DNA from: Acidobacteriota bacterium
GTDB taxonomy: Bacteria > Acidobacteriota > Terriglobia > Bryobacterales > Bryobacteraceae
DNA: 64,000 bases
Reading direction: 5' to 3'
NCBI GenBank assembly: GCA_017307505.1
Contig: JAFKEE010000022.1
Location: 186,001 to 250,000 of the forward strand
The translations under genes and the position numbers were made by a program. Below the pieces are notes generated by a model. The model made no database searches and was not told the origin of the DNA. It worked only from the letters and a program-made list of their open reading frames with translations. Numbering within the stretch: position 1 is the first letter of the stretch; each line of letters begins with the position of its first letter. This document shows, piece after piece, positions 11,846 through 35,355 of this stretch.

Positions 11846-12592
11846 TCACCGCGGCATCAGCGCGAACACGCCCCAGCCCAGGTATTCGCGCGTGTAGGCC
11901 GCATAACGCCCGGGTCCCGAAGTCAGTTCGGCTCGGACCTCTTCCGCGAAGCTGTCGCCGGGATTCGCTTCGAGCCAACGGCGCAGGGTGAGCCACTTGG
12001 CCGCTTCGTACCGGTCCCAGCCGTCCTGGTCCGACAAAACCATTTCCACGACGTCGTAGCCAAGGCCACCGAACGACGCGAGAAGTTTGGGGAGCACGAG
12101 AAAGTCGGAGATCGAACCGGCATGGCATCCCTTGGCAATCTCTTCCGTCGCCGGTAACCGCAGCCAGTAAGGCTCGCCAATGAGGATGATCCCTCCAGTG
12201 AGTAGACTCTTCGCCAGAAGCTCAATGGTGCCGGCGACTCCCCCACCGATCCAGGTGGCTCCGAGGCAGGCGGCCACCCCGACTTTTTCACTGGCGATGT
12301 AGCCGGCAGCGTCGCCGTGGATGAACTCGACGCGATCGGCCACACCGAGTTCCTGGGCGCGGAGTTTCGCCTGCCCGGTGAACAACTGGCTCAGGTCAAT
12401 TCCGGTGCCTGTGATCCCGTAGTCGCGTGCCCAGGTGCAGAGCATTTCACCCGAACCGCTCCCGAGATCGAGCACGCAGGTCCCCGGTTCCAGGCGCAAC
12501 GCCGCTCCGAGTGTGGCGAGCTTTTCCGGTGTGAATGGATTGTGGATGCGGTGAGCGCTTTCGCTGACGTTGAAGATCCGAGGAATGTCCAC
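11846..12592 (-). CDS. Class I SAM-dependent methyltransferase
   Basis: The 248-residue enzyme has the Rossmann-type SAM-binding motif I VLDLGSGSGE (residues 40-49), motif II GTGIDLS, and the post-II segment VEFIHGDAAGY, followed by CLGATWIGGG and the motif III-like GGIILIGEPYW. The overall layout (a DIPRIFNVSESAHRIHNPF start, SAM core, then a C-terminal helical cap) matches small-molecule methyltransferases of the UbiE/Coq5 type. The acceptor is unknown. It is convergent with the acetyltransferase gene; the 192 bases between them hold no feature I can support. Confidence 0.85.
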   Translation of the reverse strand: MDIPRIFNVSESAHRIHNPFTPEKLATLGAALRLEPGTCVLDLGSGSGEMLCTWARDYGITGTGIDLSQLFTGQAKLRAQELGVADRVEFIHGDAAGYIASEKVGVAACLGATWIGGGVAGTIELLAKSLLTGGIILIGEPYWLRLPATEEIAKGCHAGSISDFLVLPKLLASFGGLGYDVVEMVLSDQDGWDRYEAAKWLTLRRWLEANPGDSFAEEVRAELTSGPGRYAAYTREYLGWGVFALMPR

Positions 12593-18945: not shown

Positions 18946-19557
18946 GTGACGAGGCATCGCCTGGCTCCGTGGAAGCGGCGGCTGGCGATGGTGTCGCGCT
19001 GGCTCCACATCTACCTGTCGATGGCGAGCTTCGGGATTCTGTTCTTCTTTGCGGTGACCGGGTTGACCTTGAACCATACGGAGTGGCTGAAGGGCCAGCA
19101 GCGGACGGTGCAGACCAAGGGCAGCGTCGATCTGAAGTGGGTGAAGGGTACCGATGACAAGAGTGTGGCGAAGCTGGAGATTGTTGAGCTGCTCAGGAAG
19201 GCTCATGGCGTGCGGACCGCGATGAGTGAGTTCCGCATCGATGAGTTCCAGTGCACGGTCTCGTTCAAGGGGCCCGGCTATGCGGCGGATGCGATCGTCG
19301 ACCGGGCTACGGGGCGGTATGAGTTCACAGAGACGAAGATGGGCGCGTTGGCGATTCTGAACGATCTGCACAAGGGCCGGGATAGCGGGCCGGTGTGGTC
19401 GGCGATTATTGATGTGTCGGCCGTGCTGATGACTTTGGTGTCGCTGACGGGTCTGGTGCTGATTTTCTATCTGCAGAAGCGGCGGATGTCCGGGTTGGTT
19501 TCGCTGGCCGCGGGGGTGGCGCTTTGCTGTCTGGTTTATCGGCTGTGGGTGCCTTGA
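18946..19557 (+). CDS. PepSY-associated membrane protein
   Basis: The GTG at 18946 is chosen because GGAGGAG ends six bases upstream; an ATG at 18907 would add 13 residues with no ribosome-binding site. The 203-residue product has a first helix (SMASFGILFFFAVTGLTLNH, preceded by SRWLHIYL), a periplasmic PepSY-like domain (about residues 50-140, with VDRATGRYEFTE and ILNDLHKGRDSG), and two C-terminal helices (VLMTLVSLTGLVLIFYL and LAAGVALCCLVYRL). The conserved histidines in WLHIYL, LNHTEW and DLHKG match the pattern of PepSY_TM proteins thought to carry electrons (heme or flavin) across the membrane. It follows the ApbE-DUF2271 gene by 42 bases and is its probable partner. Confidence 0.85.
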   Translation: MTRHRLAPWKRRLAMVSRWLHIYLSMASFGILFFFAVTGLTLNHTEWLKGQQRTVQTKGSVDLKWVKGTDDKSVAKLEIVELLRKAHGVRTAMSEFRIDEFQCTVSFKGPGYAADAIVDRATGRYEFTETKMGALAILNDLHKGRDSGPVWSAIIDVSAVLMTLVSLTGLVLIFYLQKRRMSGLVSLAAGVALCCLVYRLWVP

Positions 19558-19590
19558 GAGCTGTCAGCTCTCAGCTGTCAGCTGTCAGCT
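19556..19590. repeat. Second copy of the TCAGCTGTCAGC-type array
   Basis: Overlapping the PepSY stop codon and extending into the intergenic space is GAGAGCTGTCAGC, TCTCAGCTGTCAGC, TGTCAGCTCG. It matches the array at 13859-13894 in unit and placement: each lies directly after a plus-strand stop codon. Confidence 0.75.
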
Positions 19591-19613
19591 CGCGGTTGTC
19601 CCCGGTGGATTGA

Positions 19614-22241
19614 TTAGTCGGACTGCAGGGCGGACCTCGGGTCGCTTTGGGCCGCGGTCCAGGCTGGTTTGAGGGCCGCTGCGGCGGAGACCAGGAAGAG
19701 GAAGGCGAAGACCGAGGCCAGGACCAGGGGGTCCGCGGCGGTCACCGTGTAGAGTAAGTCTTCGGCGGCTCGTCCTGCTCCATAGGCTGCTACCAGGCCT
19801 GCCAGTTCTCCTACCACTACGAAGATCAGCGCACTGCCGGTGATTTCGAGGAGCAACCTGCGGCGGCCCGCGCCTAAGGCTACTTTCAGGGCGATCTCGC
19901 GGGTGCGTACGGCAAGGCTTTCGGTGATGACGCTGTAGACTCCGGCCGCGGCGAGGATTACCGCGCAGGCCGCGAACCAGAGGAGCAGGATCATGTTGAA
20001 GCGATGGCGAGCCGTGTCCTTCTCGATCAACTCGCCTAACGTGGCTGTGCCGGCGATGGCCTGGCGGGGGTCGATCTCCGCAGTGGCCTGCCGCACCAGG
20101 GCTACGAGCTCGTGGGTGGGCCTGGTGCCTCGCACCACCACGTAGTTTGTTGGGATGCCCGTCTGCAGGTAGTTCACGTAGAGGTCGACGCCGGTTTCGG
20201 TGACTCGGCGGTAGCGGGCTTCGGCAGCGACTCCAATGACCTTCCACCAGACGTCGTCAGGGCGTCGACCGAAGCGAAGGCGCAGGCCCAGCGGGTCATG
20301 GCCGGATTTGCGGAGCTGGCGGGCCAGGTTGTTGCTGATGATGACGACAGGCTCGGCTTTCTCGAAGTCGGTGAGGCGGAAGTCGCGGCCCTCGAGCAGG
20401 GGCGTGCCGACAGTGGCGAGGTAGCCGGGTGTGACCACTTCGTAGTTGGCGGAGGGCAGTTCTTCATTGCGATGGCGGCCGGCTTCGAAATCGAATTCGT
20501 AGCGGAGGTCCCAGCCGACATTGCCTTCGAAAGGACGCAGGAGAACGGCTCCCGCGTGGGTGACTCCGGGGGCGGTGCGGAGCTTTTCGAGGAGGCGAGT
20601 GTAGAAATCGTCGCGGGATTGTGGCGTGAAGCCATCGCCGCGCAACGCGAGGTTCATGGTGACGGTGTCGCGATTGGCGAAGCCCACGTCGGTGTGGAGC
20701 ATGGCGCGGTAGCTGACGACCAGCAGGACGCAGAGGGAGAGCAGCAGGACCGTGGCGGCGGTCTGGGCCATGACGAAGACGCGCTGCAGGCGCTTGCCGG
20801 TGCGGGAGCCGGCGGTGCGCTGGCCGCCTTCGCGGAGCAGGGCGTCGAGATCGAGACGAGTGATGAGCCAGGCGGGCGCGAAGGAGCAGACCAGGGCGGC
20901 CAGGGCCGCGGTGGCGAGGGCGAAGGCGAGTCCACGCGGGTCGAGGGTGGCTTCGGTGAGGCGCGGAATGTCGGCGGGGGCCCAGAGGACAAGCAGGCGG
21001 ATCAGGGCCGCGGCGAGTAGGGTTCCTGACACAGCGGCGAGGATGGCGGCGGTGAGTCCTTCGACGGCAAACTGGGCGAGGATGTGGCGTGGAGCGGCTC
21101 CGAGAGAAGTGCGGGTAGCGATTTCGCGGCGGCGGGCGAGGGCTCGGGACAGAAAGAGATTGCTGGCGCAGATGCAGGCGGCGAGCAGGAGAAGGAGCGA
21201 GGCGCCCAGGGAGATCCAGAGGTGGATGCGCGCGGAGCCCGTCCAGTATTGGGGTAGAGGGGTGACGACCGCTTTCTGGGATTTCGAGTAGAACTGCGGG
21301 TAATCGCGGGCCTGGCGCTGGAAGAGAGAGGCGACCTGGGCTTGGATGGCGGAGGCGGAGTAGCCTGGCCGGGAGCGTGCGATGGCCTGGAGGTAAGTGG
21401 CTCCGCGGCGTTCCTTCATGGGGTTGACGCCGAGGGGCAACCAGATGTCGACACCGCGCGGGAAGTCGATGGCAGGAGCTGTAACTCCGATGACAGTGAC
21501 TCCGGCTCCGTTGAGGCGGATCTGGCGGCCCAGGATGGCGGGGTCGGCCGAGAAATAGGTGCGCCAGACGTGATCGGAAAGAATGACGACGGGGGCGGCA
21601 TTGACCTGCTCGTCGGCATCTGTGAAGTCGCGGCCGAGTGCGGGTTTGATTCCGAGGACACGGAAGAAGTCGTGGGAGACGGGCGTGCTTTCGAGCTGGA
21701 CGGGGTCGCCGTGGCCGGTGTCGAGGACTCGGCCGTAGCCGTAGAGCGTCGTCGGCATGAGGGCGACGGAGTCGAAGGCTTTGAGGGCCTGGAGGTCGCC
21801 GAGTTCGGGGTAGGCCAGTTCGACGAGGGCGACTCCGGCGACCTGGTCCTGCTTCCAGATCACCTGGATGGCATCCTGATCGGGGAAGGGCAGGGGCTTC
21901 AGGAGAACGGCCTGGACGAGAGAAAACATGGTGACGCTCATGCCGATGCCGAGCGTCAGAATGGCGATGGCGAACAGATAGGCTGAGCCGTTGCGGCGGA
22001 AGGTGCGCAGGGCAAAGGAGGCGTGGCGGAGGGCGGTCTCCAGCGGCTGCAACGGAGTGGACTCGTACACGTCTTCGTGGATGCGGGCAGGATTGCCGAG
22101 GCGGCGGCGGGCGTAGAGTTCGGCCTGATCCGGCGTGTCGCCGGCGTCGAGACGCTCCTGTTTGAGCTGAGCGAGGTGGTCGGCGAGTTCGGCGTCGAGG
22201 CCGCGGTTGTTGCGGAAGAGGTGGAAGAGGCGCGAGAGCAT
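19614..22241 (-). CDS. Acidobacterial duplicated orphan permease (FtsX/MacB type)
   Basis: The 875-residue protein has an N-terminal cytoplasmic segment typical of the family (ELADHLAQLKQERLDAG, then LYARRRLGNPARIHEDVYES), and after it two repeats, each made of a large MacB-like periplasmic domain and FtsX-type helices. The first TM follows GSAYLFAIAILTLGIGMSVTMFSLVQAVLLKPLPF, shown here in overlapping short parts as LFAIAILTLGIG and VLLKPLPFP; three-helix FtsX units occur near residues 345-460 and 760-865. This architecture is the ADOP family, abundant in Acidobacteriota and lacking a dedicated ATPase gene. Export of an unknown substrate or mechanotransmission is inferred from MacB and FtsX. 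The PadR gene lies four bases upstream on the same strand. A second ADOP/PadR pair is at 55925-58963. Confidence 0.88.
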   Translation of the reverse strand: MLSRLFHLFRNNRGLDAELADHLAQLKQERLDAGDTPDQAELYARRRLGNPARIHEDVYESTPLQPLETALRHASFALRTFRRNGSAYLFAIAILTLGIGMSVTMFSLVQAVLLKPLPFPDQDAIQVIWKQDQVAGVALVELAYPELGDLQALKAFDSVALMPTTLYGYGRVLDTGHGDPVQLESTPVSHDFFRVLGIKPALGRDFTDADEQVNAAPVVILSDHVWRTYFSADPAILGRQIRLNGAGVTVIGVTAPAIDFPRGVDIWLPLGVNPMKERRGATYLQAIARSRPGYSASAIQAQVASLFQRQARDYPQFYSKSQKAVVTPLPQYWTGSARIHLWISLGASLLLLLAACICASNLFLSRALARRREIATRTSLGAAPRHILAQFAVEGLTAAILAAVSGTLLAAALIRLLVLWAPADIPRLTEATLDPRGLAFALATAALAALVCSFAPAWLITRLDLDALLREGGQRTAGSRTGKRLQRVFVMAQTAATVLLLSLCVLLVVSYRAMLHTDVGFANRDTVTMNLALRGDGFTPQSRDDFYTRLLEKLRTAPGVTHAGAVLLRPFEGNVGWDLRYEFDFEAGRHRNEELPSANYEVVTPGYLATVGTPLLEGRDFRLTDFEKAEPVVIISNNLARQLRKSGHDPLGLRLRFGRRPDDVWWKVIGVAAEARYRRVTETGVDLYVNYLQTGIPTNYVVVRGTRPTHELVALVRQATAEIDPRQAIAGTATLGELIEKDTARHRFNMILLLWFAACAVILAAAGVYSVITESLAVRTREIALKVALGAGRRRLLLEITGSALIFVVVGELAGLVAAYGAGRAAEDLLYTVTAADPLVLASVFAFLFLVSAAAALKPAWTAAQSDPRSALQSD

Positions 22242-26196: not shown

Positions 26197-27231
26197 TTAC
26201 GCCGTGAACCGGGCCCGGTTCAGCCCGGCGGCGGCCGTGGACTCGCGGATACTCAACTCGGCCGGCAGTTGAATGGTGACAGGACCGCCGGTGAGCTTGC
26301 CTTCGATGCGGTCGATCAGCATCGAGGCACCCTTGAAGCCGAGATCGAATGTGGGCTGCGCCACACAGGTGAGCAACGGATGAAAGGCGCGCCCGAACGG
26401 GAGTTCGTCGAAAGTCGCCAGGGCAATGTCGCGCGGGCAGTGGACGCCCGCCTCGTCCAGGGCTTGCAGGACCCCGACCGTCATCATCGCATTGCAGACG
26501 AAGATGGCGGAGGGGAGATGCTGGCGGAACGCGATCTGCTTCCCCAGCCGGTAGCCGGAGGTTTCGCGAAAGTCCCCCTCGAAGACGAGCGCGGGGTTGT
26601 ACTCGATACCCGCCTCGCTCAGAGCTTCCTGGTAGCCCTCCAGCCGCTGCCGCCCAATCCCGAGCGAGAGCGATCCGGTGATGATGGCGATCTCCTGGTG
26701 CCCCATGCGGACCAGATGGCGGACGCATTCGCGCGCTCCGCGGACATTGTCGACGACCACCGAGTCGACGCCGATGCCGGGCGGGACGCGGTCGAGGAAG
26801 ACGATGGGCGTGCCGGAATCGGCGGCATTGCGGATGTGTTCTATCGTGCCGTCTCCGGGCGCGATGGCGATGAGGAAGCCGTCGACGCGCCGGGAACGGA
26901 GGGCGGCCAGGGCGTTCTGCTCGCGCTCGACACGCTCGTCGGTATTGACCGTAATCAGCAGGTAAGAGCGCTCGCGGGCCGCTTCCTCGGCCCCGCGGAT
27001 GATCTCCGGGAAGAACGGATTGGTGATGTCGGGGATGATCATCCCCAGCATGTGAGTCTGGCGGACCTTCAGGCTGCGGGCGATGTGGTTGGGATGGTAG
27101 TCCAGCGCGCGAACGGCTTCCAGCACCCGCTGCTTCAGGTGCGGGCTCACGGGGATGCGGCCCGAGATCACGTTCGAGACGGTCGCAATAGAGACTCCAG
27201 CCTTGCTGGCTACTTCTTTGATCGTTGCCAT
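26197..27231 (-). CDS. LacI-family transcriptional regulator
   Basis: The 344-residue protein has the classical LacI helix-turn-helix and hinge at its N-terminus (TIKEVASKAGVSIATVSNV, then RVLEAVRALDYHPNHIARSL), and a periplasmic-binding-protein-like sensor domain (LGMIIPDITNPFFPEIIRG, VDGFLIAIAP, VFLDRVPP, VVVDNVRGA, IAIITGSLSLGIGRQRLEGY). LacI members repress or activate sugar-use genes and release DNA on binding a sugar. It is divergent from the DUF4380/receptor/GH116 genes across a 587-base gap that contains several AACGTT-centred and AAACG-type palindromes, so those genes are its likely targets. Confidence 0.93.
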   Translation of the reverse strand: MATIKEVASKAGVSIATVSNVISGRIPVSPHLKQRVLEAVRALDYHPNHIARSLKVRQTHMLGMIIPDITNPFFPEIIRGAEEAARERSYLLITVNTDERVEREQNALAALRSRRVDGFLIAIAPGDGTIEHIRNAADSGTPIVFLDRVPPGIGVDSVVVDNVRGARECVRHLVRMGHQEIAIITGSLSLGIGRQRLEGYQEALSEAGIEYNPALVFEGDFRETSGYRLGKQIAFRQHLPSAIFVCNAMMTVGVLQALDEAGVHCPRDIALATFDELPFGRAFHPLLTCVAQPTFDLGFKGASMLIDRIEGKLTGGPVTIQLPAELSIRESTAAAGLNRARFTA

Positions 27232-27354
27232 CGGATCGAACCGGCCCAGGGGGCGTCATGAGACGGGCAGAGGCTGCCCAACCAGACAAGAGGCGGCAGC
27301 TGTAGCTCCAGTATGCACATCACGAGGGCCTGTGTTGCGCCGACACAGGCGTTA

Positions 27355-27681
27355 TAACGTTTCAATCGAGGTCGAGAGCCAGTGTATGCGCCTTGCGATG
27401 CGATGTCAACTCGCAAGATGGCCCGTTTCCAGGCGTTTTCGCGCAAAACCGTTCATCGCATCCGGGCGGTACTGTAGCGATGGACGCGTTCGTCGCCTCT
27501 TTGCCGGTGGCGATAGAGAAGCTAAAGTTGGCTCTTTGGAGCGGTTTTTAGAATAACGTTTCAGTTCTTTTGCGTACATTCTAGTATTTGTTAAACGCTG
27601 AGTTTAAAGAGGATATATCACAGTTAGGCAAGAGTGACTGCGGCTCCGCGGAGCTGTACGATGTCAAAATTAAACGTATAA
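27355..27681. promoter_or_regulatory. LacI-type operator candidates in the divergent control region
   Basis: The 587-base gap 27232-27818 has no gene but at least four operator-like sites: TAACGTTTCA at 27355-27364 and again at 27554-27563, TTAAAC-GCTGA-GTTTAA at 27591-27607 (perfect 6-bp arms), and TTAAACGTATAA at 27670-27681 (palindromic with one mismatched pair). LacI-family operators are typically A/T-flanked palindromes with a central CG, as three of these are. No confident -35/-10 pair was assigned. Confidence 0.5.
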
Positions 27682-27818
27682 ATTTTGGAGAGTCCTGTGA
27701 TAGAGTGTTGCCCATCGGCGGTCAGCCACGTCCTCGCTGAGGTCGCGAATTCACTCCCTCGCAGGGCTGGGCCCGCAGTTCACAACAGTCTGGTCACGGA
27801 AAGGACCTCCCAGGGCCC

Positions 27819-28805
27819 ATGGCGCAAGTAAGATTGGCGATTGCCGCATTAGCCGGCCTCAGCTTCGTCAGCAGTGCGGCAGTCACCGTACAAAAACAGA
27901 ACTATCAGGGGTGGCCCAACAGCTACCGCATCAGCAATGGCGAGGTGGAACTCGTGGTGACCGGCGACGTCGGACCGCGTGTGATTCGCTTCGGGTTTGT
28001 GGGCGGGCAGAACCTCTTCAAGGAGTACAAGGAACAACTCGGCAAGAGCGGCGAGGCGCAGTTCCAGGCGCGGGGCGGCCACCGCGTGTGGAAGGCGCCC
28101 GAAGATCCGGTGGCCACCTGGGCTCCGGACAACGTGCCCGTGGAAGTCAAGCAGACAGCCCAGGGTGTGATCGCGCGCGAGCCCAAAGAGCCGTTGACCG
28201 GACTCCAGAAGGAGATCGAAATCCGGTTGGCGGCCAGCGGCAGCGGCGTCACGGTGATCCACCGGATCACCAACGGATCGCTCTTCCCCCTCGAATTCTC
28301 GGCCTGGGCGCTCACCCAGATGGCCCAAGGCGGCACGGCTGTCACCGGCTTCCCGCCCCGCGGCAAGCACCCGGTGAATCTCGAGGCCACGAACCCGCTG
28401 GTGATGTGGGCGTATACGGACCTTTCAGACCCGCGTTGGACGTTCACCAAGAAGTACCTGATGTTGCGCCAGGACCCCGCGAATAAAGAACCTCAGAAGC
28501 TCGGCACCTTCAATGCGGATACGTGGGCAGCCTATGTGCTCAATGGGGAAGCCTTCGTGAAGCGGGTGAAGGCGGACCCGGGCAAGACCTATCCCGACTT
28601 CGGCTGCTCGTTTGAGACCTTCACGAACGACGAGTTTTTGGAGGTGGAGACGGTGGGTCCGCTGACGAAACTGCAGCCTGGGCAGGCGGTCGAGCACGTC
28701 GAGAACTGGAGTCTGCACAAAAACGTGCGCCTGGACGCCAAGACCGACGCGGCACTGGACAAGCTGATTCTTCCGTTGGTTCAGGCGACCAACGGCGCAC
28801 GGTAA
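27819..28805 (+). CDS. DUF4380-like, galactose-mutarotase-fold protein
   Basis: The 328-residue product has a signal peptide (VRLAIAALAGLSFVSSAA) and a beta-sandwich of the aldose-1-epimerase type: NGEVELVVTGDVGPRVIRFGF near residues 42-62 (given here in parts VELVVTGDVG and RVIRFGF), VTVIHRITN, and LEFSAWALTQMA. This fold binds carbohydrate, and DUF4380-type proteins occur in polysaccharide loci. A conserved tail, LEVETVGPLTKLQPGQAVEHVENWSLH, contains the ETxGP pattern typical of this group. It is the first gene to the right of the LacI regulator and precedes the hairpin array and the receptor gene. Catalytic residues could not be assigned. Confidence 0.75.
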   Translation: MAQVRLAIAALAGLSFVSSAAVTVQKQNYQGWPNSYRISNGEVELVVTGDVGPRVIRFGFVGGQNLFKEYKEQLGKSGEAQFQARGGHRVWKAPEDPVATWAPDNVPVEVKQTAQGVIAREPKEPLTGLQKEIEIRLAASGSGVTVIHRITNGSLFPLEFSAWALTQMAQGGTAVTGFPPRGKHPVNLEATNPLVMWAYTDLSDPRWTFTKKYLMLRQDPANKEPQKLGTFNADTWAAYVLNGEAFVKRVKADPGKTYPDFGCSFETFTNDEFLEVETVGPLTKLQPGQAVEHVENWSLHKNVRLDAKTDAALDKLILPLVQATNGAR

Positions 28806-28852
28806 GGAAAGGAATCCTTCGGAGTCGCGCCGGGAGGGCGCGGCTGATCTGA

Positions 28853-29035
28853 AGCGGTGCACCACCACCGCTGGCAGAACGCGATCAGGACAGAGGCGCA
28901 CCACCGCTGCGGTCCTGGGAAATCATGAGTTGCGGCGCACCACCGCCGCACATTGACGAACTAAGGATGGAGCGGCGCACCACCGCCGCTGCATTGACGA
29001 AATAGAAATGGAGCGGCGCACCACCGCCGCTCCAT
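28853..29035 (+). repeat. Tandem array of five hairpins with invariant CACCAC loop
   Basis: Five inverted repeats recur every 39-41 bases. Arms and loops: AGCGGTG/CACCGCT (28853-28872); CAGGACAGAGGCG/CGCTGCGGTCCTG with two mismatches (28886-28917); TGCGGCG/CGCCGCA (28931-28950); AGCGGCG/CGCCGCT (28971-28990); and ATGGAGCGGCG/CGCCGCTCCAT (29008-29035, 11 perfect pairs). In every copy the six-base loop is exactly CACCAC while the arms differ in a paired manner. Between the last three copies the spacer also repeats (CATTGACGAA...ATGGAGC). The array lies between the DUF4380 stop (28805) and the receptor start (29068) and contains no reading frame. Confidence 0.85.
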
Positions 29036-29067
29036 CGAAGGCAACCGAGCAGTGACAGGAGAATGCC

Positions 29068-32000
29068 ATGAACAACTTTCTCTATCTCTTACGCTCGATC
29101 ACCCTCACTGTCATGTTAGTCATTGGGGTGTCGAGTGTCACGTACGGGCAGCTGACTTCGCAGATCAACGGGACCATTACGGATGGTACCGGCGCCATGA
29201 TGCCGGAGGTCGGAGTCACCGTGATCAACGAAAACACAGGCATCCGGTGGGAGGTCAAGACGAACCAGTCCGGAGCCTATCTCGTGCCGCTGCTGCAACC
29301 TGGCCAGTACAGAATCAATGTGCAGGCACAGGGGTTCAAGCCGGTCAGCCGTACCGGGGTACGGCTGGACGTAGCCCAGACCGCCACTATTAACTTCGCT
29401 CTCGAGGTCGGCGCCCTGGTGGAGTCCATCGAGGTCAAAGACACGACCCCGATCCTCGATACCGGCAGCAACTCCATTGGCGGTCTGGTCTCCCCGGAAA
29501 AGATCGAAAACATGCCGATGAAGGGGCGGAACTCCAACTCCCTTCTCATGCTGGTGCCGGGCATCCGCTCGACGCGGGCCACCACCAGCAACCCCGTGTT
29601 GGAGAGCCACTATCAGTTCTTCTCGGTGAATGGATCGCGGCCCAATCAGAGCCAGTTCACCCTCGATGGCGGGAACAATACGAACCTGACCTTCAACGGG
29701 CCGGAGTACAGCGCACAGGTCGACTCGGTGCAGGAGTTCCGGGTGCAGACCAGCAACTTCAGCGCCGAGTATGCGAACTCGGCCGGCGGCATCATTAATG
29801 TCGTCACCAAGAGCGGCACGAACGAGTTCCACGGCAGCGCGTTCGAATACTTCCGCAACGACGCGCTGGCCGCCAACGACTTCTTTTCGAACGCCGCCGG
29901 CAAGAAGCGGCCGGTGCTCCGCTATAACCAGTTCGGCGGTACCGTGGGTGGGCCCGTCATCAAGAACCGCTCGTTCTTCTTCTTCGGCTATGAGGGTCTG
30001 CGGATGAAGCTGCCGAGCGTCATCACCACCAGCGTACCGACCGCGGCGCAGAAGGCGGGCGACTTCTCGAGCACCCTGACCAGCACGGGGCAGGTGGTCG
30101 CGATTTATGACCCGCTCACCACCCGTATCGATCCCAACAACGCCGCCAACTACGTGCGGACGCCGTTTGCCGGGAACCGGATTCCCGCCAACCGGATCGA
30201 CGCGGTCTCGGCCAATGTCCAATCCTATTACCCGGCGGCAAATCAGGCCGGCGACCCCTTCACGGGCCTCAACAACTTCTTCTTCAGCGGGCCGCAGCAG
30301 CGCAGCACCAACGACTTCTCGGGCCGCTTCGACCATCAGCTCAACCAGAGCACCAACGTGATGGTGCGCGTCTCCCGCTTCAACCTGAGCCCCTGGACCA
30401 ACCCCGCCACCTTCGGCGAGAGCAACATCGCCAGCCCGGGCTACGTCACCAAACCGCAGCACCATCCCAACACGACAGGCAAACTCACCAAGGCGTTCAC
30501 CCCCACGCTGTTCGGCGAGTTTCTGGTCTCCTGGGCGCGCTGGTATTACGAGAGCTTTGCGCTCTCCAACGGATTCGATCCGACGAAGCTGGGCTTCCCG
30601 GCCTACCTCGCGGCGAACAGCAAAACCTTGGGCTTCCCGTCCATCGCCCCGGGCGAGATGTCGGGCCTCGGCACCTATTACAACGAGCACGACGTTTCCG
30701 ACCGCTACGAGTTCAAAGCGAATCTCTCAAAGATCAGCGGCCGCCACACCATCAAGTTCGGCGGGTTGTACGGGCTCGGTCTGTACACGTCCCGTCTGAA
30801 CAACAACAGCGACGGCACTTACTCATTCGACAAGTCGTTCACCCAGGGTCCGAATCCGCTGGTCAGTTCTCCGGCGGGCGGCTTCGGCTACGCCAGCTTT
30901 CTGCTGGGGACGCTCAGCGGCGGCACGCACAACCCGAGCGTCGTCGACGGCGCGTTCAAGCAGCCTTACTATGGCCTCTACGTACAGGACGACTTCAAGC
31001 TGACTCCGCACTTCAGCCTGAACCTCGGCCTGCGGTGGGACTACGAAGCCCCCAGGACGGAAGAGAAGAACCAGGTGACGAACTTCGACTACACCAGCGC
31101 GGCCACGCTGTCGAATGGGGTTGTGGTGCACGGCGGCACCCTATTCCCGGGCGTGAACGGAGTGGCCCGCGGGCACTGGAATACGTCGAAGACGAACTTC
31201 GCTCCCCGCTTCGGCTTCTCCTACAGCATCAAGGACGATACCGTCATCCGTGGCGGTTACGGCATCTTCTATGCGAACACGTGGGGCAACGGCCGGAACA
31301 ACAACGCCATTCCGCAGACGGGTTTCTACTGCAGCACGGCTGTCATCAATAGCCTGGACGGCGGGCTGACTCCCTACTCTTACCTGTCCAACCCGTTCCC
31401 CTCGGGCTTCTGCGCCGCGACCGGCAGCTCCGCCGGACTGGCGACGAATCTCGGCCAGACCATCAACATGATCGACCGCAATCTGCAGTTGCCCTACATG
31501 CAGACCTGGAATCTGAACATCCAGCGCAAGCTGCCCGGGGACGCCTTGCTGGAGGTTGCTTACTCGGGTTCCCGCGGCATCCATCTGATGGCCATCACCG
31601 AGTACAACCAGATGGCTCCCGAGTACATGAGCCTCGGCACGAAGTTGAACAGCCAGGTGCCGAATCCCTATTACGGGGTGATCACCACCGGTACCCTGTC
31701 GACACCCACCATGACGCTGGCGCAATCGCTGCGGCCTTACCCGCAGTACACGGGCGTCTCCAGCCGCAATGCGACCTACGGCGCGTCCACTTATCACGCC
31801 CTGTTCGTCAAGGCGGAGCGGAGAATGTCCAAGGGCTTCAGCGTCCTCGCTTCCTACACGTTCTCGAAGCTGATCGACGACATGATTCCCAGCGTCAACG
31901 GCTTCCCCGGCGAATCGTTTGCGGGCGGCGGCCTGCAGAACTACTACAACCGGCGCGGGGAACGCGCGCTGGCTTCCTGGAATACTCCCCAGATGCTGGT

Positions 32001-32532
32001 GACCAGTTTTGTGTATGAGCTGCCCTTCGGGCAGGGCAAGCCGCTGCTCAATCATGGAGGCCTGCTGGGGCGTATTGTGGGCGGCTGGGAAGTGAACGGC
32101 ATCTCCACCCTTCTCAGCGGACCGCCGTTGCAGGTGGTCGGCGGCAACACCACCGGTGCTTTCTCCGGCACCACGCGGCCCAATTGGAATGGCAAGGATG
32201 CCACCAGGGACGGCGCTGTCCAGGGCCGTCTCGCGTCCTACTTCGACACCAGCGTATTCACGCTCAACGACCCGTATACGTTCGGTAACGCTCCGCGCAT
32301 CATGCCGAATCTCTATGGGCCAGGCACCGCCAACTTCGACCTTTCGGTCTTCAAGAACACAACGATTACGGAAGGGAAGCGGCTGCAGTTCCGGGCGGAA
32401 GCGTTCAATGCTTTCAACCGTGTGCAGTTCAGCAATCCCAACACAACCATCACGTCCAACGCGTTTGGGCGCATCAGCGGACAACAGAACTCGCCCAGGG
32501 ACATCCAACTGGCCTTGAAGTTCCTGTTCTGA
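29068..32532 (+). CDS. TonB-dependent receptor, Oar-like
   Basis: The 1,154-residue outer-membrane protein starts with a signal peptide (LRSITLTVMLVIGVSSVTYG), then a carboxypeptidase-regulatory-like beta domain (about residues 30-115, INGTITDGTGAMMPEVGVTV, SGAYLVPLLQPGQYRI), a plug domain (PMKGRNSNSLLMLVPG, GGIINVVTKSGTNEFHGSAF), and a beta barrel ending in FNAFNRVQFSNPN and the C-terminal signature DIQLALKFLF. Oar-like receptors are expanded in Acidobacteriota and are thought to import large glycan or other ligands with TonB/ExbB energy. A ribosome-binding site AGGAG precedes the ATG at 29068. It follows the hairpin array and is 12 bases upstream of the earliest possible start of the GH116 gene, so ligand uptake and hydrolysis are probably linked. 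Confidence 0.92.
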   Translation: MNNFLYLLRSITLTVMLVIGVSSVTYGQLTSQINGTITDGTGAMMPEVGVTVINENTGIRWEVKTNQSGAYLVPLLQPGQYRINVQAQGFKPVSRTGVRLDVAQTATINFALEVGALVESIEVKDTTPILDTGSNSIGGLVSPEKIENMPMKGRNSNSLLMLVPGIRSTRATTSNPVLESHYQFFSVNGSRPNQSQFTLDGGNNTNLTFNGPEYSAQVDSVQEFRVQTSNFSAEYANSAGGIINVVTKSGTNEFHGSAFEYFRNDALAANDFFSNAAGKKRPVLRYNQFGGTVGGPVIKNRSFFFFGYEGLRMKLPSVITTSVPTAAQKAGDFSSTLTSTGQVVAIYDPLTTRIDPNNAANYVRTPFAGNRIPANRIDAVSANVQSYYPAANQAGDPFTGLNNFFFSGPQQRSTNDFSGRFDHQLNQSTNVMVRVSRFNLSPWTNPATFGESNIASPGYVTKPQHHPNTTGKLTKAFTPTLFGEFLVSWARWYYESFALSNGFDPTKLGFPAYLAANSKTLGFPSIAPGEMSGLGTYYNEHDVSDRYEFKANLSKISGRHTIKFGGLYGLGLYTSRLNNNSDGTYSFDKSFTQGPNPLVSSPAGGFGYASFLLGTLSGGTHNPSVVDGAFKQPYYGLYVQDDFKLTPHFSLNLGLRWDYEAPRTEEKNQVTNFDYTSAATLSNGVVVHGGTLFPGVNGVARGHWNTSKTNFAPRFGFSYSIKDDTVIRGGYGIFYANTWGNGRNNNAIPQTGFYCSTAVINSLDGGLTPYSYLSNPFPSGFCAATGSSAGLATNLGQTINMIDRNLQLPYMQTWNLNIQRKLPGDALLEVAYSGSRGIHLMAITEYNQMAPEYMSLGTKLNSQVPNPYYGVITTGTLSTPTMTLAQSLRPYPQYTGVSSRNATYGASTYHALFVKAERRMSKGFSVLASYTFSKLIDDMIPSVNGFPGESFAGGGLQNYYNRRGERALASWNTPQMLVTSFVYELPFGQGKPLLNHGGLLGRIVGGWEVNGISTLLSGPPLQVVGGNTTGAFSGTTRPNWNGKDATRDGAVQGRLASYFDTSVFTLNDPYTFGNAPRIMPNLYGPGTANFDLSVFKNTTITEGKRLQFRAEAFNAFNRVQFSNPNTTITSNAFGRISGQQNSPRDIQLALKFLF

Positions 32533-32601
32533 GGAAGTCAGAGAATGAGTGAGAGGTGCGGGGGGCCGGTGGCGCGGCCGCCCGCCAAGGAGCGAAGTTT
32601 C

Positions 32602-35355
32602 ATGAGTCGAAAACAGAATGGATCCGATTCCGGTCGACGGGGCTTTCTGAAGACGGTGGCCCTGGGGGCCGCGGCGGTACCGGCGGCGGGACAGACGGCG
32701 GCCGGGCAGGCTCCGGCAGCCGCAACAGCCGCCCCGGCGGTTCCGGCACCGGCTGCTGCCGCCAGCGCCTTCGAATACCCGCGCTCGTTTCGCGGCAGGC
32801 AACTGGCCACCATCGCTTTTCCTCTAGGCGGTGTGGGCGCCGGCAGTGTGAGCCTGGGCGGCCGGGGCCAACTGCGCGATTGGGAGATCTTCAACCGGCC
32901 CGAGAAGGGGCGCCTGCTCAACTACACGTTCCCGAGCATCTGGGCCCAGGCCGGGTCGGGCAAGCCGGTGGCGCGTGTCCTGGAGGCCCGGCTCCTCTCG
33001 CCCTACCAGGTGGGCCGCGGCCTGGATCCCGCGCAGGTCTCGGGCCTGACGCGCCTGGAGGACGCCAGGTTCACGGGCGAGTTTCCCATGGCGGGCATCG
33101 AGTTTCGAGACAGGACGCTGCCCGTGAAAGTGAAGCTGGAAGCGTTCACGCCTTTCATTCCGCTGGAGCCCGATGATTCGGGACTGCCCGTGGCCATCCT
33201 GCGGTACAAGGTGACGAACCCGGGCAAGGTGGCGGCGAAGGTCTCCATCGCGTACTCCCTCGACAATCCAGTCGGCTTGAACCCGCGGGTGCGCCCCGAA
33301 CGCGGGCGGGCTGCGGAGCAGGCGCGCACGAACGAGTTCCGTTCAGGCGATGGCCTGCAGGGCCTCATGATGACCGATGCCAAAGCCCAGGCGGGCGCGC
33401 CCATGACGGGCTCCGTGGCCCTCTGCCTCCTGAACGCGGGTGACGGCAAGGTCACTCATCTGCGCGGCTGGCAGAAGGCGAAGTGGTGGGCCAGCCCGCT
33501 GCTGTTCTGGGACGATTTCTCGGACGACGGGCAACTGGGGCCGGAACCGGAGTCGCGGAATACGGTCGGTTCGCTCTGTCTGCAGCGGACCATTGCTCCG
33601 GGTGCAGAGGCCGATTTCACTTTTCTGCTGGCCTGGCATTTTCCCAACCGGACTCCGGCCTGGTGCGGCTGGGTGGCTCCGCAGGGCGATGAGAACGTGG
33701 TGATGGGCAACTACTATGCGCAGCGTTTCGCTGATGCCTGGAAGGTGGCCGAGTACACGGCCTCTCATCTCGAACCCTTGGAGAAACGGACCCGGGCCTT
33801 CACGGCGGCCATTCGCGCGTCCACACTGCCTGCCGCGGTGAAGGATGCGGCCACGGCCAATCTCTCCACCATGGTGACCAACACCTGCTTCCGCACCGCC
33901 GATGGGAAGTTTCGCGGGTTCGAAGGCATCGATGATGAGCGCGGCTGCTGTTTTGGCAACTGTACGCACGTCTGGAACTATGAGGTGGCCACGCAGCACC
34001 TGTTCCCGTCGCTGGCGCGCTCCATGCGGGAGTCCGCTTTCGAATTGGGGGCGGCGATGGAGGGTGTGATCCCCATTCGCCTGATGATTCCTGAGAAGAA
34101 GCAGCATTCGGGCACGACCGCGGCCGACGGCACCATGGGGCAGATCATCAAGGCCTACCTCGACTGGCGGCTGTCTGGCGACAATGCCTGGCTGCAAAGC
34201 ATGTGGCCGAATATCAAGCGGGCCATGGAATTCGCCTGGGTGGAAGGCGGCTGGGACGGCGATCGCGACGGCGTGGCCGAAGGGGTCCAGCACAACACCT
34301 ACGACGTCGAATTCTATGGGCCGAATCCGATGTGCGGAGCGTATTACCTCGGCGGCCTGCGCGCCTGCGAGGAGATGGCTCGCGCTACTGGCGACACGGC
34401 GTTTGCCCAGCAGTGCGCCGGCCTGTTCAAGAGCGGCAGCCGCTGGATCGATGCGAATCTCTTCAACGGCCAGCACTACATCCAGAAGATTCAGGGGATC
34501 CCGACGGCGAAGATCGCCAAACCGCTGCGCTCCACTGGTGGGGCCGAGGATCCGGAACATCCTGACTTCCAGTTGGGGGAAGGCTGCCTCACTGACCAGT
34601 TGATTGGCCAGTATCTGGCGGATCTGGCCGGCCTCGGCCCGCTACTCGACCCGGCCCACATCCGCAAGACCCTGGAAAGCATCTACCGCTACAACCATCG
34701 CTCCACCCTCACCAATCACGATTCGGTGGAGCGGATCTACGCCCTCAACGACGAAGCCGCGGTGCTGATCTGCGATTACGCCGCCGGCAAGCGGCCGCGC
34801 ATCCCATTCCCCTATGCTTCGGAGGCGTGGACCGGGATCGAGTATCTCTTCGGGACTCAGCTCATCGCCGCCGGAATGGTGCGCGAAGGCACTCAGTGTT
34901 TTGAAGATGTGCGCCGGCGGTACGACGGCGAGAAGCGCAACCCGTGGGACGAGATCGAGTGCGGCCACCACTATGCCCGGGCCATGTCGGCTTGGTCTGG
35001 GGTGCTGGCGCTGACGGGCTTCGAGTATCACGGTGGAGCGGGCAGCCTCTCTGTCGCTCCTCGCATCCGGCCGGAGAACTTCACTTCGTTCTGGTCGACT
35101 GGCGGCGGGTGGGGCGTGTTCTCGCACTCCCTGAAGGGCGGGCGGACTCAACTGACGGTCTCTGTGACCGAAGGCAAGCTGTCGTGCCGGACGGTGGAAG
35201 TGTCAGGCGGAGCAGGTGCCGGCGGAGCATCTGCCGCCAGCATCGGAAACCGCAAGCTGGCCCATGAAGTGAAGCGGGAAGGGAAACGGGCTCGATTCGT
35301 CTTTGCCGAACCGCTGGAAATTGCGCATGGCGAGACCCTGACGCTCTCGGTCTAG
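32602..35355 (+). CDS. GH116-family glucosylceramidase-like glycoside hydrolase (GBA2 type)
   Basis: The ATG at 32602 (AGGAG about ten bases upstream) places a Tat signal at the N-terminus, GRRGFLKTVALGAAAV; an in-frame ATG at 32545 would add 19 residues before it. The 917-residue enzyme has the GH116 N-terminal beta domain (AFPLGGVGAGSVSLGGRG is split here as FPLGGVGAGSVS and LRDWEIFNRP) and a C-terminal (alpha/alpha)6 catalytic domain (DUF608) with GNCTHVWNYEVATQHLFP, VQHNTYDVEFYGPNPMCG, LGEGCLTDQLIGQYLADLAG and ECGHHYARAMS. GH116 members cleave beta-glucosides or beta-xylosides. A Tat leader means it folds in the cytoplasm and works in the periplasm. The C-terminal 80 residues form a beta cap (GGGWGVFSHSLKGG). 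Confidence 0.88.
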   Translation: MSRKQNGSDSGRRGFLKTVALGAAAVPAAGQTAAGQAPAAATAAPAVPAPAAAASAFEYPRSFRGRQLATIAFPLGGVGAGSVSLGGRGQLRDWEIFNRPEKGRLLNYTFPSIWAQAGSGKPVARVLEARLLSPYQVGRGLDPAQVSGLTRLEDARFTGEFPMAGIEFRDRTLPVKVKLEAFTPFIPLEPDDSGLPVAILRYKVTNPGKVAAKVSIAYSLDNPVGLNPRVRPERGRAAEQARTNEFRSGDGLQGLMMTDAKAQAGAPMTGSVALCLLNAGDGKVTHLRGWQKAKWWASPLLFWDDFSDDGQLGPEPESRNTVGSLCLQRTIAPGAEADFTFLLAWHFPNRTPAWCGWVAPQGDENVVMGNYYAQRFADAWKVAEYTASHLEPLEKRTRAFTAAIRASTLPAAVKDAATANLSTMVTNTCFRTADGKFRGFEGIDDERGCCFGNCTHVWNYEVATQHLFPSLARSMRESAFELGAAMEGVIPIRLMIPEKKQHSGTTAADGTMGQIIKAYLDWRLSGDNAWLQSMWPNIKRAMEFAWVEGGWDGDRDGVAEGVQHNTYDVEFYGPNPMCGAYYLGGLRACEEMARATGDTAFAQQCAGLFKSGSRWIDANLFNGQHYIQKIQGIPTAKIAKPLRSTGGAEDPEHPDFQLGEGCLTDQLIGQYLADLAGLGPLLDPAHIRKTLESIYRYNHRSTLTNHDSVERIYALNDEAAVLICDYAAGKRPRIPFPYASEAWTGIEYLFGTQLIAAGMVREGTQCFEDVRRRYDGEKRNPWDEIECGHHYARAMSAWSGVLALTGFEYHGGAGSLSVAPRIRPENFTSFWSTGGGWGVFSHSLKGGRTQLTVSVTEGKLSCRTVEVSGGAGAGGASAASIGNRKLAHEVKREGKRARFVFAEPLEIAHGETLTLSV

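Follow-up and report, generated by a model that had tools for sequence, protein, structure and literature searches.

The window, a 64,000-nucleotide stretch of acidobacterial DNA, contains a 262-base gap (28806–29067) between a DUF4380-like gene and a gene for a TonB-dependent receptor. Most of this gap is occupied by an array of hairpins that share one loop, raising the question of what these hairpins are and why they should be stacked between two genes of an apparent operon.

Architecture of the hairpin array

The array is composed of five 18-base cores within 28854–29030, each with the loop CACCAC. The cores start at 28854, 28893, 28932, 28972 and 29013, with start-to-start spacings of 39, 39, 40 and 41 bases, and thus bear out the sequence-only reading of five inverted repeats at a 39–41 base period around a common loop. 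The same reading listed the arms of four copies. Perfect stems of 7, 7, 7 and 11 bp are indeed present in four of the five copies, as listed, but copy 2, which was absent from that list, is imperfect: its core, GAGGCG-CACCAC-CGCTGC, contains one A-G mismatch and one G-U pair, and folds with a 7-pair outer stem. All five units, as well as the four units of an orthologous array in G060, a genome of the same genus, have identical orientation. The window has four hairpins with the same 6-base loop (stem of at least 6) no more than 200 bases apart, whereas not even two came so close in any of 60 shuffled windows (mononucleotide shuffles in 300-base blocks).

The position ahead of a TonB-dependent receptor was confirmed by Pfam matches (OMP_b-brl_4, 8.7e-239; TonB_dep_Rec_b-barrel, 2.2e-07), and hairpin 5 ends 32 bases before the receptor ATG. 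The array had been described as lying in the leader of the receptor gene; it does precede the receptor, but its location is better stated as the intercistronic gap 3′ of the DUF4380-like gene. The stretch GCGCCGGGAGGGCGCGGCTG, at the GGGAG-loop stem-loop in front of the array, is common to G060. The linkers (n = 7, both species) have a GC content of 45%, as compared to 63% for the window.

Since the spacing is not throughout a multiple of three, a coding repeat was ruled out. As regards a CRISPR-like array, five nearby genes were scanned and none is a cas gene, while five of the seven linkers of both species are visibly related, the exceptions being the first two of the window.

Table 1. Positions in the window of the hairpins, the surrounding genes and the putative operators
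Feature	Position	Strand	Remarks
LacI-family regulator	26197..27231	-	Divergent from the operon; missing at the orthologous locus of G105
Putative LacI-type operator	27352..27365		AACGTT at 27356-27361, conserved in G060; operator role inferred
Putative LacI-type operator	27552..27564		AACGTT at 27555-27560, conserved in G060; operator role inferred
DUF4380-like gene	27819..28805	+	26 bits, below the Pfam cut-off of 29.4; G060 and G105 orthologues 97% identical
GC-rich stem-loop with a GGGAG loop, preceding the array	28823..28845	+	Predicted fold; 17 bases 3′ of the DUF4380-like gene
Hairpin 1: outer TCTG/CAGA, AGCGGTG-CACCAC-CACCGCT	28848..28878	+	Core 28854-28871, equal to G060 copy 1, paired T/A change included
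Hairpin 2: outer TCAGGAC/GTCCTGG, 3x3 internal loop, GGCG-CACCAC-CGCT	28885..28918	+	Core 28893-28910; no counterpart core in G060
Hairpin 3: TGCGGCG-CACCAC-CGCCGCA, bulged outer stem	28928..28954	+	Core 28932-28949
Hairpin 4: outer GATG/CATT, G-G mismatch, AGCGGCG-CACCAC-CGCCGCT	28966..28995	+	Core 28972-28989
Hairpin 5: perfect 11-bp stem, ATGGAGCGGCG-CACCAC-CGCCGCTCCAT	29008..29035	+	0/28 bases differ from G060
TonB-dependent receptor (carboxypeptidase-regulatory domain and outer-membrane barrel)	29068..32532	+	G060 orthologue 98% identical
Glycoside hydrolase family 116 (GH116) gene	32545..35355	+	ORF starts 12 bases past the receptor stop

Folding and covariation

The whole gap folds at −118.5 kcal/mol, as compared to −94.4 kcal/mol (sd 5.4) for dinucleotide shuffles (z −4.48), none of which was as stable (0/200). 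When the flanks were shuffled with the cores held fixed, none of 1000 sets folded as stably for all nine units of the two species, nor did any of 1000 for the window's own five units, and 4 of 1000 did for window units 1–4; these were mononucleotide shuffles, and the units within one array are not independent, because they are related. In equilibrium folding of the whole gap, window copies 4 and 5 and G060 copies 2 and 3 favour other partners. The local pairs of window copies 4 and 5 have a probability of 0.09, and the two copies pair with each other; in G060, the local-pair probability is 0.00 for copies 2 and 3 and 0.49 for copy 1.

Across the nine core units (six distinct), pairing is intact in 38 of 42 cells, and both partners vary at two of the pair positions. 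Of 500 shuffles, 20 reached the values of the real cores for the covariation score and the paired percentage, 191 for the count of doubly changed pairs and 430 for that of pair types. With the core partners slid by +3, the covariation score was 0.217, as compared to 0.238 unslid. The covariation inside the cores is thin and suggestive only. Mirrored arm changes can also be produced by hairpin-templated repair. The loop CACCAC and its closing G-C pair are retained in all nine units.

Comparison with related genomes

The orthologous array in G060 likewise stands before the receptor, with a copy number of four as compared to five in the window. The core of copy 1 is the same in both species (0/18 bases differ), including the same paired T/A variant, whereas its flanks, compared ungapped, differ at 5 of 20 bases on the left and 10 of 12 on the right. 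The last hairpin is also unchanged (0/28), with differences at 9 of 17 linker bases on its left and 1 of 32 leader bases on its right. The two genomes differ at 25.7% of the fourfold sites in the receptor gene (156 of 607) and at 52 of 164 such sites in the DUF4380 gene. At the rate of 25.7%, zero changes in the 46 bases of the first core and the last hairpin would have a probability of about 1e-6 under independent neutral change, a figure that is based on the two hairpins with clear positional orthologues, picked after alignment, and that assumes the fourfold-site rate and no gene conversion. Given the single change among the leader bases and the six synonymous changes in the first 50 codons of the receptor, as compared to 246 in 1155 overall, the conservation near the last hairpin may partly be local.

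Two of the G060 linkers are identical to each other. Together with the relatedness of most linkers, this pair fits an array that expands and contracts in steps of 40 bases. Between the two species, the array is thus seen as tandem repeats of a unit about 40 bases long that varies in number, its comparable hairpins unchanged and its linkers drifting.

The hairpins look kept as structures, a view supported by the unchanged end orthologues amid diverged linkers, the pairing of the flanks and the folding of the gap beyond shuffles. The sequence-only reading had taken paired changes in the stems as the mark of a structure kept for its fold; a kept fold is supported by these three lines of evidence, but the covariation within the cores is weak.

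Operon context and transcription signals

The DUF4380-like gene is presumably the first gene of an operon that continues with the receptor and GH116 genes and that probably serves sugar uptake. Operators of the LacI family are palindromes with a central CG, of the AACGTT type. Both AACGTT-centred sites fall in the stretch that separates the LacI gene from the DUF4380 gene, and AACGTT occurs nowhere else in 27001–29100; none is found in the array or the gap, which rules out the array as a set of LacI-family operators. Within 27100–29200, a search confined to sigma-70-type sites found none on the + strand and two on the minus strand. Given that the AACGTT sites precede the DUF4380 gene and that no + strand sigma-70-type site was found, the receptor is probably transcribed by read-through from upstream. 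The same 27100–29200 region contains six terminator-like sites. The sole + strand one is outside the array, so an intrinsic (U-tract) terminator was rejected; on the minus strand, the hairpins of copy 5 score as terminator-like, accounting for two of the six. Just upstream of the DUF4380 gene, the segment 27690–27818 shows hardly any change in G060 and is well conserved in G105, another genome of the genus, despite the missing LacI gene there; it is a possible regulatory leader.

The orthologous locus of G105 retains the DUF4380 gene (97%) and the GH116 gene. The DUF4380 gene at this locus (L127 of C1, junctions near 7852586 and 7853741) has no LacI gene on one side and neither array nor receptor on the other. 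A short stretch matching the 3′ end of LacI persists, which points to loss. In G232, a genome of another genus, the genes for LacI (66%) and the receptor (67%) adjoin each other divergently, AACGTT sites occupying the space between the two, and therefore the receptor of the window is probably reached by read-through. No array was found at the G232 pair. At lower identity, the association loosens: among the other nine LacI loci examined (52–62%), receptors of no more than 26–33% are nearby in five and none in four. From these few arrangements, one may surmise that the array was added in a setting where another gene precedes the receptor.

Distribution of the array

In the window genome, the 18-mer with up to two mismatches had 16 matches, five in the array and 11 scattered (reversed control, 6), and a two-unit pattern had five, four in the array and one in an unrelated place (control, 4). 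A three-copy pattern matched 6 of 250 genomes of the order (reversed control, 5 genomes) and a two-copy pattern 12 of 399 genomes of the class (reversed control, 19 genomes). Only in the window genome and G060 do the matches correspond to actual hairpin arrays. The non-hairpin matches are at chance level, because the reversed controls matched 5 and 19 genomes, respectively. CACCAC loops with at least five paired bases were present at none of 15 non-array match loci (4 from the three-copy order scan, 10 from the two-copy class scan and 1 from the window genome). Likewise, no tandem same-loop hairpins were reported at 71 receptor-homologue loci, 4 of which hold fewer than 100 bases before the match, by a finder of exact stems of at least 6 in groups of at least 3, or in pairs with loops of at least 5. 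With arrays in two species only, among 250 genomes of the order and 399 of the class, a widespread family was ruled out, and the arrays envisaged across Acidobacteriota came down to those of the window genome and one congener.

Run over 902,902 bases of the window genome, a generic finder (spacing 28–60, at least three copies) detected the CACCAC array and one other; in 479,803 bases of G060 it detected the orthologous array only, and on shuffled sequence none. A wider finder (spacing 20–110) detected one 83-base repeat in a further 796,582 own bases and one 90-base repeat, in G105, in 1,017,764 bases of other loci. The shuffles for these finders were block mononucleotide. Since the finders covered 1,699,484 of the 9,385,101 bases of the own genome, other arrays may exist there.

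Rfam had no match in the whole window, the best score in 28700–29200 being 22.7 bits against a cut-off of 50, and the CACCAC pattern had no match in plasmids. Among viral contigs there were two matches to the two-copy pattern, one of them in an open frame rich in Ala, Pro and Gly. The other, in viral contig L304 (1440–1515), has a single 9-bp stem, GGGGCGGCG-CACCAC-CGCCGCCCC, located past a stop codon and ahead of what may be the next start; this CACCAC hairpin may be a convergence. No description of a CACCAC array was found in the literature, a weak result given that the search was mostly of texts outside subscription journals.

A second array and other repeats

About 6.3 kb to the left of the window, on contig C66 of the same genome, locus L223 contains at 19518–19660 four hairpins with a GGAGGA loop, a 39–40 base period and one mirrored stem change. 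The orthologues in G060 and G105 have one such hairpin each, with further mirrored stem changes. The surrounding 411 bases (L223:19358–19768) fold with a z of −5.40, include a strong terminal hairpin and have no match in Rfam. Binding by CsrA follows a GGA-loop rule. Because CsrA homologues are present in seven of nine genomes of the genus, the own genome included, a CsrA-binding or sponge RNA with recent tandem expansion is a fair guess for this candidate region. The G105 version of this RNA matches in 5 of 237 genomes of the family, 3 of them over a long stretch, all in this genus.

The presence in one genome of a second array with a different loop hints at a shared mode of origin. A broader idea, to which we give little credence, is that in this lineage, whose acidobacterial genomes are large, multivalent elements of RNA control arise when single hairpins are duplicated in tandem at a period of about 40 bases. 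The CACCAC array of the receptor operon and the GGAGGA array of the candidate CsrA-binding RNA would be two cases, the loops being kept by a trans-acting protein or RNA and the copy number tuning the response.

The 83-base tandem repeat (L295:3100–3660) has two palindromes per unit, GCGGACTGAAGTCCGC and GGCTGAAGCC, and the 90-base tandem repeat of G105 (L177:17372–17660) has one GACGGG-TTAG palindrome per unit. Short hairpin pairs 19 bases apart with CCCT/CCCA loops (L208:809–829 and 12222–12242; L215:258–277 and 458–477) resemble dispersed REP-type elements.

Proposed function and alternatives

The reading we favour, which we rate at somewhat under an even chance, is that the array is transcribed as part of the DUF4380–receptor–GH116 operon and acts between its cistrons to set mRNA processing and stability. 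A polycistronic mRNA would start from a LacI-controlled promoter ahead of the DUF4380 gene and fold co-transcriptionally into successive GC-rich hairpins with AU-richer linkers between them. Ribonuclease cleavage would take place in the linkers; the hairpins would then halt decay of the upstream RNA from its 3′ end, and the last of them, with its 11-bp stem, would protect the receptor mRNA at its 5′ end. In this way the array, itself enlarged by tandem duplication of 40-base units, would determine how abundant the receptor and hydrolase mRNAs are relative to that of DUF4380, and its copy number would tune this ratio. Transcription through the gap, processing and the dosage effect are steps that we infer. 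Against this reading stand the damaged core of copy 2, which has no G060 counterpart, and equilibrium folding, which does not favour independent hairpins throughout (window copies 4 and 5; G060 copies 1–3). The weak covariation of the cores, the possibly local conservation at the last hairpin and the terminator-like score of copy 5 on the minus strand also speak against it. Nor does a role in stability alone explain the invariant loop, although recent duplication could.

The invariant loop would be accounted for if CACCAC were recognised by a protein that binds RNA or by an antisense RNA carrying GUGGUG, making the array a multivalent platform that controls translation or decay of the receptor message. 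In agreement with this, the loop and its closing pair are kept in 9 of 9 units while the linkers change, and the GGAGGA array, with its own invariant loop and similar period, together with a CsrA homologue makes such binding plausible in the lineage. However, no candidate partner was found, whole-genome pattern searches place the array at one locus only, and GTGGTG occurs on the + strand of the operon only at 27954 in the DUF4380 gene, 31123 in the receptor gene and 33483 and 33697 in the GH116 gene; recent duplication alone may have kept the loop invariant. We therefore regard loop binding as unlikely, if worth keeping in mind. Dyad-symmetric repeats upstream of a probably regulated receptor gene, with mirrored changes that would suit a symmetric protein, could also form an array of DNA operators, a dimeric transcription factor occupying each 18-bp inverted repeat. 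Yet the asymmetric centre CACCAC is invariant, the outer pairing has bulges at varying offsets that a symmetric dimer would not need, and, because 40 bp correspond to about 3.8 helical turns, the sites do not share a face of the helix. Likelier sites for the neighbouring LacI are found outside the array, and there is no + strand sigma-70-type site nearby, leaving an operator array improbable.

The remaining alternatives concern termination and neutral origin. Clusters of hairpins have been proposed as terminators that do not require U-tracts (PMC8355165), and the array, with its strong GC hairpins and no + strand U-tract, could accordingly be a partial terminator or attenuator that lowers receptor transcription. 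This we consider quite improbable: the terminator-like sites at the array are on the minus strand, and transcription of the receptor and hydrolase genes seems to rely on read-through, given that the search yielded no other promoter-like site on the + strand. A functionless palindromic minisatellite, multiplied by slippage and with arms matched by hairpin-templated repair, would fit the differing copy numbers, the two identical G060 linkers and the restriction to two genomes, and such repair could produce the mirrored changes. It is hard to reconcile, however, with a copy-1 variant core that is the same in both species though its flanks differ, or with 0 of 46 changes in the end hairpins, and homogenisation would not favour cores over linkers; we hold a neutral origin to be improbable as well. 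The preferred intercistronic role in mRNA processing and stability would in any case be of limited general importance, owing to its narrow distribution in two species and at one locus.

Comparison with known systems

CsrB/RsmZ-type multi-hairpin sponge RNAs contain repeated hairpins with a common GGA loop motif. The loop of the array is CACCAC, and it lies between operon genes, whereas the sponge RNAs have genes of their own. Like the array, REP and BIME elements are short GC-rich palindromes in extragenic DNA, and REP elements have been hypothesised to stabilise mRNA (PMC3733652). However, REP elements are high-copy and the array is at one locus, and the units of BIMEs alternate in orientation (PMC2817692), while those of the array all have one orientation. 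Being neither dispersed in high copy nor alternating, the array was ruled out as a member of this class. The hairpin-cluster terminators (PMC8355165) resemble the array in that adjacent hairpins follow a stop codon with no + strand U-tract, but they were studied in inter-operon regions, whereas the gene after the array is co-directional and seems to depend on read-through.

A further likeness is to the SRPS of the cip-cel operon of Clostridium cellulolyticum, described (PMC4423207) as intercistronic stem-loops, mostly without a U-tract, in an operon for carbohydrate use. The array shares these traits, being composed of stem-loops between co-directional genes with no + strand U-tract. Of the 33 stem-loops found there at intergenic processing sites, 28 have no U-run, and stem-loop stability correlates with transcript ratios (r = 0.44; PMC4423207). 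Transcript ratios set by stem-loops between operon genes are thus already known. As compared to cip-cel, the array consists of several near-identical tandem hairpins with one shared loop. Given that these stacked hairpins differ in number between sister species, their copy number could be a natural dosage knob.
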